A DNA stretch of 64,000 nt from NCBI RefSeq assembly GCF_004803465.1, contig NZ_SRSF01000002.1, forward strand, positions 310,001-374,000, read 5' to 3'. The notes beneath the pieces are model-generated. The model worked only from the letters and a program-made list of their open reading frames with translations, did not search any database and was not told the DNA's origin. How positions within the stretch are numbered: the first letter of the stretch is position 1; each line of letters starts with the position of its first letter. The translations under genes were made by a program, and so were the position numbers. Positions 1 to 13,265 of this stretch are shown piece after piece. The DNA is from Neolewinella litorea. Its GTDB lineage: Bacteria; Bacteroidota; Bacteroidia; Chitinophagales; Saprospiraceae.

Positions 1-257
1 ACAACTACACCCACATCTTCCTGAAAAACGGGCAGCGCATCACGGCTTCCAAGACCATCAAGCTGTACGAGGATATGCTGGCTCCCTTCAACTTCTACCG
101 CGTCCACAAGCGGCACGTCATCAATATGAACTACATGAAGAAATTCGTGAAAGGAGAGGGCGGTTACCTGGTCATGGACGACGATATGCGTATCGAGGTA
201 AGTCGCCGGCGGCGGGCGGCTTTTATGACGCAACTGCGAATGCTGCAAGAATTATAG
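1..257 (+). CDS. LytTR-domain response regulator, C-terminal part (5' truncated by window)
   Basis: The open frame enters from the window edge (frame starting at base 3) and ends with TAG at 255-257. The visible 84 residues form a LytTR DNA-binding domain: a strand pair around YTHIFLKNG, the helix KTIKLYEDML, then the conserved FYRVHKRHVINMNYM segment and a final strand with the basic cluster SRRRR. In this family an N-terminal receiver domain is phosphorylated by a His_kinase-type sensor. The receiver would lie outside the window. The TPR histidine kinase 300 bp downstream on the same strand is the natural partner, with a small peptide gene between them. Family assignment is firm; the full architecture is inferred. 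Confidence 0.88.
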   Translation, partial: NYTHIFLKNGQRITASKTIKLYEDMLAPFNFYRVHKRHVINMNYMKKFVKGEGGYLVMDDDMRIEVSRRRRAAFMTQLRMLQEL

Positions 258-276
258 TTAACTTACACATATTGTA

Positions 277-284
277 TACATTTG
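277..284 (+). promoter_or_regulatory. Candidate -7 box upstream of the peptide gene
   Basis: TACATTTG matches the Bacteroidota -7 consensus TAnnTTTG. No clear TTTG -33 box is seen at the usual spacing. A short inverted repeat (TGGAG, six bases, CTCCA; about 282-297) overlaps and follows the box and could bind a regulator. It would drive the peptide gene at 375 separately from the upstream regulator. Confidence 0.35.
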
Positions 285-374
285 GAGCGTTCACTCCATA
301 GGCCCACTTAAGCGGTTGTTCCGTCACGCGGATCGCCGCCCGTACATTAACCACGCACAAAGACACTCTTCCCC

Positions 375-524
375 ATGGCGCAAAACGGGAAAAAAACAAT
401 TGAGGAACTACGCAACGACCAGCAGGTGAAGGTGCTGGACCGCAACGCGATGGACCAGGTAACCGGCGGCAAGCGTCGCGGGCACTGGTTTCGGCGGGTT
501 TGCGGCGGCATCATGCCCCAGTAA
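375..524 (+). CDS. Small precursor peptide with double-glycine leader (49 aa)
   Basis: ATG at 375 and TAA at 522-524 give 49 residues. Residues 8-32 look like a leader of the Bacteroidota GG type: TIEELRNDQQVKVLDR followed by NAMDQVTGG, where a hydrophobic/polar helix ends at Gly31-Gly32. Cleavage there would release the 17-residue cationic peptide KRRGHWFRRVCGGIMPQ, with five Arg/Lys, one His, one Trp and one Cys (a second GG at 44-45 lies inside it). Such leaders are normally cut by a C39-peptidase ABC transporter; none is in this window. The gene lies between a LytTR regulator and a TPR histidine kinase (32 bp before its ATG). It could be a pheromone, a bacteriocin or a modified peptide. 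The role is inferred and the reading frame itself is not proven. Confidence 0.55.
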   Translation: MAQNGKKTIEELRNDQQVKVLDRNAMDQVTGGKRRGHWFRRVCGGIMPQ

Positions 525-556
525 GTCCAGTTCCCCCTACCGCAGTCAATCCTTCC

Positions 557-2503
557 ATGCCAAATCCGCAGGGCAATGTCCCGGAGCGGGACGAGGATCT
601 CGAGCAGATTGAAGTCGTACGTGATCTGCTCACCGACTATGTCTATACCAAACCAAGGCTGGCCCGTGAACTACTAGAGCGGCAGCGCCGGCTGCTCGAC
701 CTGCACGCACCCGACCTCGCCCGGCTGGAGCACCGCACCGGCCACGATTACCGCCTTGCCTACCACCTTCACCTCGCCAACCTCGAAAGCCAGGAATACC
801 GGCACGAGGCGGCGGTTGCCCCCTTCCGCGCCGCCCTGGAGATCGCCGAACAGCGGGGCGACATCGCCGATCGCCTGGAAGTCTACCTGTCCTACACCGG
901 CCACCTCAGCAACCTCGGCGAGATCGAAGCCGCCGGCGATTACCTGGAGCGCTGTCAGCGGTTACTCGAATCCTACCCCAGCGACCGCTTGAGCGCCCAC
1001 GCCGCCTGCCGCCACGGCTATCTCTACTTGCTTTTCTTCAGCTATCCGAAGGCCACGATGAAGTTCCTGGAAGCGGAAACCCTGCTGGAGGGCGGCACTT
1101 TCGAACTCACGCCCCAGGATCACTATTTCTACTCCCTGACGCAGTCGGGCATGGGCTCAATCTACCAGAACAGTGGAGAGAGCGAACTGGCGGTAGCGGC
1201 CTTCGTGAAGGCCATCCAACGCTGTGAGACCATCGGACTGCGCGCGCGCTTGCCCTGGCACCAGCTCAATCTTGGTAAGGAACTCATCAGCGGGGGCGAA
1301 TACCAGGAAGCTCTCTCCTACTTCCAGGCCGTTGTCGACAGTGCAGCCAACGGCTCCTCCCGCGCGCTGGCGGCCGCCTACGCCAATATGGGCTTCTGCT
1401 ACCACCACCTGGAGCAGCCCGAGCGAGCGAGCGGATACCTGGACCGCGCCGAGGAACTATACCGTAGCGAAGCGGAACCCGACCGGGTGGAACTGGCCAG
1501 CATCGGGTTTATGCGGGCTACCCTGCTGATGGATGCCGCGCGCTGGGAGAAGGCCATCGCTCAGCTGAACCAATCGCTGCCCGTGGCCCAAGTGGATGAG
1601 GAAACCAGCGACCCCCGCCTGCTCAGCATGGTGGCCGATGCCTACCTGTACCTTTCCGTTGCGTACTCCACCACCGGGGATTATGAGGCCGCCTACCACC
1701 ATCATTGCACCTACGACCATTACAACTTGCGCTTCCACAAGCAGATCGACATCCTGCGCCAACAGCAGTTTGCCGCGCAGTTCCGGGCCGAGGAGCGCGA
1801 ACAGGAAAACCGGCAACTGAAGTTGCGGGCCAGCCAGCTCAAGCTTAAGGCCCTGCGGGCGCAGATGAACCCCCACTTCCTCTACAATGCGCTTAACAGC
1901 ATCCAGTCGTTCATCTCAACCAACAACGCCGCGACGGCCAGCAAGCACCTGGCGAAGTTTGCCATGCTGATGCGCCAGAGCCTGGAATACGCCAACCGGG
2001 AATACATCACCCTGGAAGAGGAGCGGCAATTCCTGACCGACTACCTGGAGATCAACCGGCACCTTCGCTATGAAGGCAAGCTTACCTACCGCGTGAACCT
2101 GCACCCCGACCTGGAGGAGGACATCATCGGCGTGCCGACCATGATTCTGCAACCCTACGTCGAGAACGCTATCGAGCATGGGCTCCGCGGGCAGGCAGAG
2201 GGCCACATCGACGTCGAATTCCTTCCGGACGACGATGATCACCTGTTGGCCATCGTGACCGACAACGGCATCGGCCGTGTCCGCGTGCGTGAAATACAGG
2301 CGCGCGACGCCACCCGGATGCACCATAAGTCGCGCGGCACCCAGATCACCGAATCCCGCTTGCAGTTGCTTTCCGACGAAGACCGCGAATGGGTGCAGAT
2401 CATTGACCTTTACGATTCGGACGACCGGGCCAGCGGTACCCAGGTGCGGGTAAGGATTCCCGTAGCCGAGATGCTCCCCCGGCGCGCCGTGCCCCAGGGT
2501 TGA
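557..2503 (+). CDS. TPR-repeat sensor histidine kinase (His_kinase/LytS type), apparently cytoplasmic
   Basis: 648 residues from the ATG at 557; the frame is open from a TTG at 500, but that would overlap the peptide gene. Roughly residues 15-400 are helical TPR-like repeats. A coiled coil (about 405-435, rich in Q, R, E) leads to the His_kinase motif QMNPHFLYNALNS with phospho-acceptor His440, then a HATPase domain with N box (NAIEHGLRG) and G box (TDNGIGR). No signal peptide and no membrane segment is visible, unlike many Bacteroidota TPR kinases. The likely output partner is the LytTR regulator upstream. A soluble TPR sensor beside a secreted-type peptide invites comparison with RRNPP peptide receptors; that link is inference. 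Confidence 0.88.
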   Translation: MPNPQGNVPERDEDLEQIEVVRDLLTDYVYTKPRLARELLERQRRLLDLHAPDLARLEHRTGHDYRLAYHLHLANLESQEYRHEAAVAPFRAALEIAEQRGDIADRLEVYLSYTGHLSNLGEIEAAGDYLERCQRLLESYPSDRLSAHAACRHGYLYLLFFSYPKATMKFLEAETLLEGGTFELTPQDHYFYSLTQSGMGSIYQNSGESELAVAAFVKAIQRCETIGLRARLPWHQLNLGKELISGGEYQEALSYFQAVVDSAANGSSRALAAAYANMGFCYHHLEQPERASGYLDRAEELYRSEAEPDRVELASIGFMRATLLMDAARWEKAIAQLNQSLPVAQVDEETSDPRLLSMVADAYLYLSVAYSTTGDYEAAYHHHCTYDHYNLRFHKQIDILRQQQFAAQFRAEEREQENRQLKLRASQLKLKALRAQMNPHFLYNALNSIQSFISTNNAATASKHLAKFAMLMRQSLEYANREYITLEEERQFLTDYLEINRHLRYEGKLTYRVNLHPDLEEDIIGVPTMILQPYVENAIEHGLRGQAEGHIDVEFLPDDDDHLLAIVTDNGIGRVRVREIQARDATRMHHKSRGTQITESRLQLLSDEDREWVQIIDLYDSDDRASGTQVRVRIPVAEMLPRRAVPQG

Positions 2504-2566: not shown

Positions 2567-3379
2567 ATGCCCGACACCAGCTTACGCCACCGTATCCACG
2601 AAATCATTTTCGAGGCCGACACGCCGGCCGGGAAATTTTTCGACGTGGCCCTGCTGGCGCTCATCTGCTTGTCGATCCTCGTGGTGATGCTGGAAAGCGT
2701 GTCGGAATTCAATGAGAATTACGGCACCCTCTTTTTCTACATTGAGTGGTTTCTGACCATTGTGTTCACCATTGAATACGGTTTGCGGCTGTGGGTCACG
2801 ATCAACCCCGTCAGGTACGCGCTGAGTTTCTACGGTATCGTGGACGTGCTGGCCATCCTTCCCTCTTACCTGGCCCTCTTTCTGGCCAACGCCCAGTACT
2901 TCCTCATCATCCGCATCCTGCGCCTCATGCGGGTGTTCCGCATCTTCAAGCTGGGGCAGTACCTGACCGAAGGCGACCAGCTGATGAAGGCCATCGCGGC
3001 CAGCCGTAACAAGATCTCCGTATTCCTCTTCGTGGTGACCATTCTAGTCATCATCATAGGGTCTTTCATGTACCTGCTGGAGGGCGGGAGCAACGCCGGC
3101 TTCTCTTCCATCCCGCGGTCGGTGTACTGGGCCATCGTTACCATCACCACCGTTGGGTACGGTGACATCACCCCCCAGACGCGGGTCGGGCAGTTCGTTT
3201 CCGCGGTGGTCATGATCCTGGGTTACGCCATCATCGCCGTACCGACCGGGATCGTTACCACTGAGATCATCAATACCAAAAAGGACGTGAGCACCCAGGT
3301 CTGTCGCTACTGCTCCAGGGAAGGCCACACCTCCGACGCCGTATACTGCAAGTACTGCGGCGGCCGACTGAACCCCTAA
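2567..3379 (+). CDS. Voltage-gated-type potassium channel with C-terminal zinc ribbon
   Basis: 270 residues with six membrane helices. S4 carries Arg at every third position (RILRLMRVFRIFK, about 115-130). The selectivity filter TITTVGYGDITP lies near residue 195 between S5 and S6, so K+ selectivity is expected. After S6 the protein has a short cytosolic tail with two CxxC pairs (CRYC and CKYCGG), a zinc-ribbon-like end instead of the usual long C-terminal domain. It is a lone gene 63 bp after the kinase, convergent with the SGNH gene (9 bp between stops). The channel family is certain; gating and the role of the ribbon are unknown. Confidence 0.92.
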   Translation: MPDTSLRHRIHEIIFEADTPAGKFFDVALLALICLSILVVMLESVSEFNENYGTLFFYIEWFLTIVFTIEYGLRLWVTINPVRYALSFYGIVDVLAILPSYLALFLANAQYFLIIRILRLMRVFRIFKLGQYLTEGDQLMKAIAASRNKISVFLFVVTILVIIIGSFMYLLEGGSNAGFSSIPRSVYWAIVTITTVGYGDITPQTRVGQFVSAVVMILGYAIIAVPTGIVTTEIINTKKDVSTQVCRYCSREGHTSDAVYCKYCGGRLNP

Positions 3380-11559: not shown

Positions 11560-12098
11560 CGATGGCTTGAGCCGTCAGGCTGCCCACTTATGTAGCGATG
11601 GCTTCAACCGTCAAGCTGCTACAAAACCGGTAACGCCGAAAGTCAATCGGGCTGGAAAGCCCTCAACCCGTTTGGTAGCGATGGCTTCAGCCGTCAAGCT
11701 GCTACAAAAACCGGTAACGCAGAAGGTCAATCGGGCTGGAAAGCCCTCAACCCGCTTGTGTAGCGATGGCTTCAGCCGTCAAGCTGCAAAAAATAACAGC
11801 TATCACAAGCAGCAGGCCGGCTCAAGCCGGCGCTACGGTGCAGGGCCTGTGCGGCAGGTAGCGACGGCTTGGGCCGTCAGGCTGCCCACTTATGTAGCGA
11901 TGGCTTCAGCCGTTAAGCTGCTACAAAAACCGGTAACGCAGAAGGTCAATCGGGCTGGAAAGCCCTCAACCCGCTTGTGTAGCGATGGCTTCAGCCGTCA
12001 AGCTGCAAAAAATAACAGCTATCACAAGCAGCAGGCCGGCTCAAGCCGACGCTACGGTGCAGGAGCAGCGGGCCGGCTCAGGGCGACGCTACACGGTG
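11560..12098. repeat. Intergenic hairpin-repeat block with a 170-bp direct duplication
   Basis: No gene is supported here. The block mixes three short palindrome types: GATGGCTTCAGCCGTC (starts near 11563, 11598, 11680, 11766, 11864, 11899, 11985), GGGCTGGAAAGCCC (three copies) and CGGCTCAAGCCG (two clear copies plus one decayed). A larger unit is duplicated almost perfectly: 11675-11844 and 11894-12063, 170 bp each with two differences by eye. The 210-codon frame across it is a by-product of the repeats. Confidence 0.85.
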
Positions 12099-13265
12099 CT
12101 ACGCCGGCACCACGCGCACAATGCCTGTACCTTCCACGCTGGCGTAGATGTATCCGTCGGGGCCCATACGGACGTCGCGAACCCGGCCGATATTTTTGAT
12201 GAGTTCCTGCTCTCCGGTGACGGCATCGCCGTCGAGGTGAACCAACTTGATGTAGCTGAACTTGAGGCTGCCGACCAGCAGGTCGCCTTCCCATCCTGGG
12301 TAGCGGTCGCCGGTTACGAAGGCCATGCCGCTGGGCGCGATGCTGGGCACCCAGTAGTGGAAGGGTTGCTCCATACCGGCCTTGCCTACCTCCTGCGTGA
12401 TCTGGGTACCGTCGTAGTTGATACCATAGGTAATCACCGGCCAGCCGTAATTTTTACCGGCCTCAATGATGTTGACCTCGTCGCCGCCCCGTGGACCGTG
12501 CTCGTGCTCCCAGATCTGTCCTGTGGTGGGATGCACGGCCAAGCCCTGCAGGTTGCGGTGCCCAAGTGAGTAGGTGGCCTCCTTGGCATTGGGAGCGCCT
12601 ACGAAGGGGTTATCGGATGGGATGCTGCCGTCGGCAGCAATGCGGTACACCTTGCCCCCATCGCGGGTACTGTCCTGGGGGTTTTCGTCGCGGTTGCCGC
12701 GATCGCCAATGGTGAAGTAGAGGTATCCGTCTTCCGGTCCCCAGACCATCCGGCTGCCGTAGTGCTGACCCTTATCGGTGGCCGGGCCACCGTCGTATAG
12801 GGAGGTGAAATTTTCAAGTCGGGTACCGTCTTCACTGAGGGTACCACGTCCCACGGAAGTGAAGCCCTTCTCCCCACCATCTTCCGAGCGGCTGTAGCTG
12901 AGGTAAACGTAACGGTTGGTCGCGAAGTCCTGGTCGAGCAAGACATCGAGCAATCCGCCCTGACCGGCATCCCGAACCTCGGGCACCCCGCTGACCTCCG
13001 TAGCGGAATCGCCCTGCACGTGCAAGAGGCGGCCGTCCTTTACGGTAGCCACCATGTTGCCGTCGGGCAGCCAGGTGAAGCCCCAGATGATGTCCTCGAA
13101 GTTGAATACCGTCTCGGCTTCCACACCGGCGGCCGTCAGCATCATGGTGGGTTCGCCGTCGGCCGCGCGGTTGGGGCCTTCGGTGGTGCTTTCTTCGGTA
13201 GTGGTGGAGGCGGGGTCGCAGGCCACGAAGAGGGAGATTAGAATCGGCAGGAAGAGGTAGCGCAT
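12099..13265 (-). CDS. PQQ-dependent sugar dehydrogenase (GSDH family) lipoprotein
   Basis: 388 residues. Lipobox ISLFVAC (Cys16) followed by a Thr/Ser/Glu linker. The body is the six-bladed propeller of soluble aldose dehydrogenases: FEDIIWGFTWLPDGNMVATVKDG, GQGGLLDVLLDQDF, YGSRMVWGPEDGYLYFTIGDRGN, HRNLQGLAVHPTTGQIWEHEHGPRGGDEVN, and YNW-like calcium/PQQ blades. It would oxidise sugars at the cell surface and feed electrons to the respiratory chain. It is the gene after the M16 peptidase on the same strand, but a strong hairpin separates them. Confidence 0.92.
   Translation of the reverse strand: MRYLFLPILISLFVACDPASTTTEESTTEGPNRAADGEPTMMLTAAGVEAETVFNFEDIIWGFTWLPDGNMVATVKDGRLLHVQGDSATEVSGVPEVRDAGQGGLLDVLLDQDFATNRYVYLSYSRSEDGGEKGFTSVGRGTLSEDGTRLENFTSLYDGGPATDKGQHYGSRMVWGPEDGYLYFTIGDRGNRDENPQDSTRDGGKVYRIAADGSIPSDNPFVGAPNAKEATYSLGHRNLQGLAVHPTTGQIWEHEHGPRGGDEVNIIEAGKNYGWPVITYGINYDGTQITQEVGKAGMEQPFHYWVPSIAPSGMAFVTGDRYPGWEGDLLVGSLKFSYIKLVHLDGDAVTGEQELIKNIGRVRDVRMGPDGYIYASVEGTGIVRVVPA

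Follow-up and report, generated by a model that had tools for sequence, protein, structure and literature searches.

A candidate peptide-signalling module in Neolewinella litorea that combines a double-glycine leader peptide with a predicted soluble TPR histidine kinase

Introduction

Several described bacterial systems resemble the locus reported here, which lies at the start of a 64,000-nucleotide stretch of Neolewinella litorea DNA (contig NZ_SRSF01000002.1, positions 310,001 to 374,000; hereafter the window) and comprises, in this order, a LytTR response regulator whose start precedes the window, a 49-codon gene for a peptide with a double-glycine (GG) leader, a histidine kinase with tetratricopeptide repeats (TPR) and an ion channel. 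The ComCDE and BlpC-BlpRH systems of streptococci share with it a GG-leader peptide, cleavage by a C39 ABC transporter and a histidine kinase (PMC9638458, PMC6363468). Their receptor is a membrane kinase of the HPK10 type with extracellular loops. ComE is a LytTR regulator, as is the regulator here (LytTR E 2.5e-12). In the RRNPP systems (Rap, NprR, PlcR, Rgg), too, the gene of a small peptide adjoins that of a TPR protein of the cytoplasm; their criteria are export through SEC or PptAB and a receptor of 250-500 aa that is itself an inhibitor or a transcription factor (PMC10075063). Finally, the FimS-type kinases of Bacteroidota also join TPR to a kinase. FimS is membrane-bound.

The locus is best read as ComCDE-like in parts and RRNPP-like in its receptor. 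It differs from ComCDE and BlpRH in having a predicted soluble TPR kinase of the PF06580 class as receptor, an unlinked exporter and a core whose end is conserved across genera, whereas the ComC and BlpC cores are polymorphic. A preliminary description of this DNA had drawn the parallel to RRNPP receptors. The parallel stands in kind, with Foldseek or sequence matches to Rap and NprR, but not as membership of that family, from which the module departs by its GG/C39-type export signal, by a receptor of 648 aa and by a kinase as output. The match to the FimS model (E 7.8e-9, 34 bits) is far under the family cut-off of 600, and the present kinase is not predicted to be membrane-bound. Among titles and abstract starts of open-licence PMC papers, we found no description of such a module in Bacteroidota.

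We consider it probable, though by no means assured, that these genes form a peptide-signalling module in which an exported GG peptide acts as the signal for a soluble TPR kinase, with the LytTR regulator under the control of that kinase. This reading is drawn from the conservation of the small gene, the co-occurrence of peptide with kinase and with C39 transporters, the leader residues, the solubility of the kinase and the co-variation of charge between peptide core and TPR domain.

A conserved GG-leader peptide gene precedes the kinase

The genome measures 4.40 Mb, is 98.8% complete and has the window on its contig C12 (handles in C, G and L denote contigs, genomes and loci). The C-terminal part of the regulator occupies positions 1..257 of the + strand (coding part 3-257); the gene starts 504 bases before the window and its full frame encodes 253 aa (L003:9496-10257). 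Between regulator and kinase, both recognised by Pfam, the preliminary description had placed a 49-codon gene with a GG leader and a cationic core of 17 residues, and we confirm this gene at 375..524 (+), with the leader at 375-470 and the core at 471-521.

The preliminary description had proposed asking whether relatives keep this frame, and most do. Of 25 kinase loci (the window genome and 24 relatives), 22 have an intact small frame directly 5' of the kinase, and 21 of these 22 also have the regulator adjacent. The three exceptions are G018, whose contig starts within the kinase, G034, where the peptide stands elsewhere with the regulator, and G029, in which no peptide was found. The ratio of nonsynonymous to synonymous substitution rates (NG86 dN/dS) was 0.03-0.25 in the 18 pairs listed, which involve 13 equal-length homologues. 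Judged from its sequence, this gene of 49 codons encodes a protein and evolves under purifying selection.

Among 60 relatives, 23 genomes (own included) each hold one strong peptide match (E <1e-14), always at the kinase locus; in G008, the peptide lies at a kinase locus whose kinase runs off the contig. In a named collection, the peptide adjoins the kinase in 19 of 28 loci with a TPR-covering match (best 80 of at least 588 matches). When 396 genomes of the order were searched with a profile, 66 gave peptide matches, and 64 of these genomes belong to the same family; some of the weaker matches cover no more than the leader and are members of a second peptide family.

The leader suits a C39 transporter, both by its positions and by the C39 co-occurrence given below. 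In 23 diverse members, hydrophobic residues stand at -12 (23/23), -7 (22/23) and -4 (23/23), and an acidic residue at -8 in 17. C39 domains need or bind such hydrophobic residues (PMC6363468). The core is a variable, often cationic stretch followed by a conserved end, with a terminal PQ in 20 of the 23 members; homologues next to this kinase across Saprospirales keep the GG leader, usually with a (C)GGI-x-PQ end, and conservation is high both at the extreme end of the core and in the leader. No hydrophobic signal stretch was seen in the peptide by eye.

No Pfam or NCBIfam model matched the window peptide above its cut-off: NCBIfam gave no match and Pfam a single weak one, Bacteriocin_IIc (E 0.084, 13.3 bits against a cut-off of 27.1). 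Weak matches of 25 members were mostly to GG-leader families (TIGR04149, bacteriocin_sig, bactofencin, ComC and Bacteriocin_IIc), and a PHROGs search gave no useful match.

Two related observations concern peptides elsewhere in the order. G246 has two peptides with nearly identical core ends (L237:5371-5526 and L238:5597-5764), one beside a regulator and the other alone. A second GG-peptide family has a similar leader and a core with RWTxxDTR (L236:3525-3728, L243:5723-5917, L264:1396-1605, L267:1405-1599 and L269:1438-1701); in 5 genomes (6 loci with L268) its peptide adjoins a homologous, soluble protein that has ~530 aa and matches TPR weakly. Next to the similar peptide in L118, no such protein was found. 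Peptide and ~530-aa protein are possibly a second peptide-receptor pair.

The kinase is predicted to be cytoplasmic

The kinase gene (557..2503, +) encodes 648 aa with Pfam matches to PF06580 (His_kinase, E 6.6e-21) and TPR_12 (E 9.9e-17), and its start at ATG 557 is favoured by the alignment of orthologues. As the preliminary description had it, the kinase shows no membrane helix: none was found in 25 of 25 orthologues, two of them partial and with starts of our own assignment, where the top 19-residue mean hydropathy after the start was 0.66-1.43. Sequence analysis thus predicts that the kinase is cytoplasmic and soluble.

An AlphaFold2 model (mean pLDDT 87) consists of a TPR superhelix (residues 16-373; positions 602-1675), a long signalling helix with His440 (codon 1874-1876) and an ATPase domain (about 1994-2461), all on the + strand. 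Among solved structures, Foldseek ranks a designed TPR protein and LGN, with bound partners, highest, and RapF, NprR and Rap3T within the top 50; the sequence match of the kinase to Rap3T is 1.2e-8. Because TPR folds are common, the matches to Rap and NprR support the comparison in kind only. The idea that certain TPR residues are kept only alongside an adjacent peptide was dropped, as no clear residue set emerged. The nearest named relative is the kinase of Neolewinella marina (91%; Lewinellaceae, Saprospirales).

Peptide and kinase persist together where linkage is broken

In several lineages the three genes are no longer adjacent. Regulator and peptide lie together with the kinase elsewhere in G034, G246, G356 and G070, and the peptide stands alone in G306, G312, G316 and G403. 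Ten genomes have peptide and kinase matches that are not adjacent (G034, G246, G306, G312, G316, G323, G328, G356, G381 and G403; G323 and G328 were assigned from coordinates, their peptides not having been read), and nine of the ten have a TPR-covering kinase. Nine named kinase genomes lack an adjacent peptide: five carry it elsewhere (G070, G077, G079, G080 and G081), G082 has the second peptide family only, and no clear peptide was found in G076, G078 and G083. Since the set survives broken linkage in several lineages, we conclude that the parts of the module belong together.

G029 retains regulator and kinase and lacks both peptide and C39. Of the TPR domains, its own is the most diverged, 3.8 standard deviations beyond the prediction from the kinase domain, with changes at Q79, Y81, N119, R231, W234 and G240.

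C39 transporters accompany the peptide

The preliminary description had suggested looking for a C39 transporter upstream of the window. We found no C39 gene in the 10 kb upstream nor elsewhere on the window's contig, and a local exporter was rejected: the two C39 genes of this genome both lie on contig C1. One of them belongs to L056:7028-16241 (G000:C1), where GG-peptide-like ORFs and genes for two membrane proteins that resemble CPBP (assigned by eye) come after an HlyD gene and a C39 transporter; this looks like an ordinary bacteriocin locus. The other, L057, is an orphan C39/HlyD pair; all 16 genus relatives that bear the peptide have full-length orthologues of it (55% or more), as do G018 and G010. 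Because the C39 gene of L056 has GG-peptide-like ORFs of its own, the orphan pair is the better exporter candidate.

Across genomes, C39 follows the peptide closely. All 24 relatives with the peptide have it (the own genome and G034 are counted here); of the 12 family members that lack the peptide, 4 do, G018 being set aside for its cut contig. In the wider family, it occurs in 47 of 47 genomes with a peptide match, a few of these matches covering no more than the leader, and in 2 of the 17 listed genomes that have no match. Combined, C39 occurs in 71 of 71 genomes with and 6 of 29 without the peptide (Fisher p 2e-17, ignoring phylogeny). Two members of the genus, G013 and G019, have neither peptide nor C39, and their kinase matches span the kinase domain only. 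The named set, with C39 in 22 of 24 genomes (exceptions G070 and G076, the latter with no peptide found), was kept out of these totals because several of its entries coincide in coordinates with genomes of the wider family and are apparently one and the same assembly.

Core charge co-varies with TPR charge

Core charge and TPR charge are inversely related in 52 natural pairs, one genome each (r -0.61). For this set, near-copies and some available pairs were omitted by hand; 7 of the 52 pairs are unlinked genes, and for G246 the peptide beside the regulator was used. In independent contrasts on a kinase-domain tree (46 rows), the relation holds for the TPR domain (r -0.43, p 0.003), while kinase-domain charge gives r -0.09. 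Furthermore, the signal is confined to TPR residues 181-373 (r -0.50, p 0.0005), residues 16-180 giving r 0.08. Regulator charge gives r 0.19 over 41 rows in which the TPR domain gives r -0.74. Adding eight of the omitted pairs, for a total of 60, gave r -0.67, with contrasts (51) of -0.38 (p 0.006) for the TPR domain, -0.47 for its C-terminal half and -0.06 for the kinase domain.

Proposed mechanism and alternative explanations

In the mechanism that we propose, the orphan C39-ABC/HlyD pair, encoded at its separate locus, would cleave the precursor behind Gly-Gly and carry the peptide out of the cell, a step well supported by the sequence evidence. The TPR superhelix would read the core, or the precursor before export; charge co-variation points to its C-terminal half as the most likely reader. 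Reading would then alter phosphotransfer to the LytTR regulator, as the protein families suggest, and the regulator may control the peptide promoter and perhaps the neighbouring K+ channel. Return of the core by re-uptake, in the RRNPP manner, is slightly favoured over reading of a cytoplasmic pool. The peptide-signalling module of the preliminary description is well supported by conservation, co-occurrence, the soluble kinase and charge co-variation, while core binding to the TPR domain and core re-import are proposals that we infer. The genome encodes one SBP_bac_5-type oligopeptide-binding protein, so that peptide uptake is possible, though this protein is not tied to the module. More tentatively, we suggest a Bacteroidota pheromone: a C39-exported GG peptide that returns to the cytoplasm, where the soluble TPR kinase reads it, possibly setting K+-channel activity.

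A number of observations weigh against peptide signalling. The counts of C39 and peptide do not take phylogeny into account, and a tree-based test of peptide against C39 lacked power, with too few independent pairs for significance; this test also mislabelled the kinases of G034, G070, G077, G079, G080 and G081, whose genomes carry the peptide elsewhere. G070 has regulator, peptide and kinase and no C39 match (its completeness is not given), and G381 has the peptide and no TPR-covering kinase match. The conserved TPR residues are mostly retained in kinases without an adjacent peptide. Relaxed TPR constraint after peptide loss is suggested by G029, the one case seen, and unconfirmed by L155 (G076), which is without peptide and C39, deviates by just 1.1 standard deviations and keeps most of the residues changed in G029. 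No uptake route is tied to the module. The pattern in the charges had caught our attention before any test of it was made, its sign tests fell short of significance (p 0.06-0.13, or 0.85 when the pairs are restricted to linked ones), and leader charge behaves similarly (contrasts -0.35 to -0.41), so that mature core and precursor are indistinguishable by this measure.

The main rival takes the peptide as the output: a cationic bacteriocin, or some other effector, that would be secreted through C39 and made under control of the kinase and the LytTR regulator, which would answer some other cytoplasmic signal. The GG leader and the cationic core agree with this, as do weak family matches (bacteriocin_sig in 7 of 25 members and bactofencin in 5 of 25, besides the Bacteriocin_IIc match above) and the presence of kinase and regulator without peptide in G029. 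However, the tail with its PQ end is conserved across genera, the 60 relatives hold a single strong copy per genome, core and TPR charges co-vary, and no immunity-like neighbour recurs beside the module among the clustered ORFs, which were those of 80 aa or more. The bacteriocin explanation, which the preliminary description had also raised, is weakened by these points, and we regard it as doubtful.

We judge it improbable that the kinase acts as an export gauge, binding unexported precursor whose level would report C39/HlyD activity or envelope state with no signal between cells. The cytoplasmic kinase and the co-variation of both leader and core charge with the TPR domain would suit such a gauge; the extreme end of the core is highly conserved too, besides the leader, which speaks against it and is not decisive. 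We hold it very unlikely that the peptide gives rise to a modified RiPP that has nothing to do with the kinase signal: weak leader matches to TIGR04149 (rSAM-modified RiPP) occur in 7 of 25 members (best E 0.00098), but no family resembling a modification enzyme stands out among the recurrent neighbours, in a survey that included no search aimed at such enzymes or at radical SAM.

If the signalling reading is true, the module may represent an unusual kind of bacterial peptide signalling, with the peptide as a message read inside the cell; with re-uptake, it would be an RRNPP-like sensor wired to a two-component system. The module makes it testable whether histidine kinases serve as cytoplasmic peptide receptors: the 17-residue core can be synthesised, the soluble receptor can be purified, and natural pairs with differing core charge, which include cationic, neutral and acidic cores, can serve specificity tests. 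Cultured carriers of the module include Neolewinella marina and Lewinella cohaerens.

Expression signals, neighbouring genes and further observations

A candidate -7 box of the Bacteroidota type (consensus TAnnTTTG), TACATTTG, lies at 277..284 (+) and likely belongs to a promoter of the peptide gene's own. By eye and motif search, a similarly placed TAnnTTT-type box follows the regulator stop in most genus relatives, and terminator-like hairpins were seen by eye 3' of the peptide in some distant loci. Box and hairpins together would fit a peptide made in excess over the kinase. In a search for LytTR sites, an element resembling AAAAATGTA, which was defined after seeing the data, turned up in 11 of the 36 regions upstream, against a mean of 0.9 and a maximum of 5 in shuffles; this is only suggestive of a LytTR site.

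Downstream of the kinase, a K+-channel homologue (2567..3379, +; Ion_trans E 1.5e-34 in Pfam) is a possible co-transcribed partner. It is the commonest extra neighbour, found in 18 of 33 module loci in a survey with differing flank lengths, from which 2 of 35 loci were dropped as their kinase was not recognised. The channel lies downstream of the kinase in 3 loci, upstream on the same strand in 1 and divergently upstream of the regulator in 14, and these varied placements hint at a functional tie. The homologue in the window carries a C-terminal zinc-ribbon-like CxxC...CxxC stretch. Genes 5' of the regulator look like housekeeping genes, probably with Maf and LptC among them. Further into the window, the ORF at 11567-12199 translates into repeated blocks, which suggests a DNA repeat array rather than a gene.
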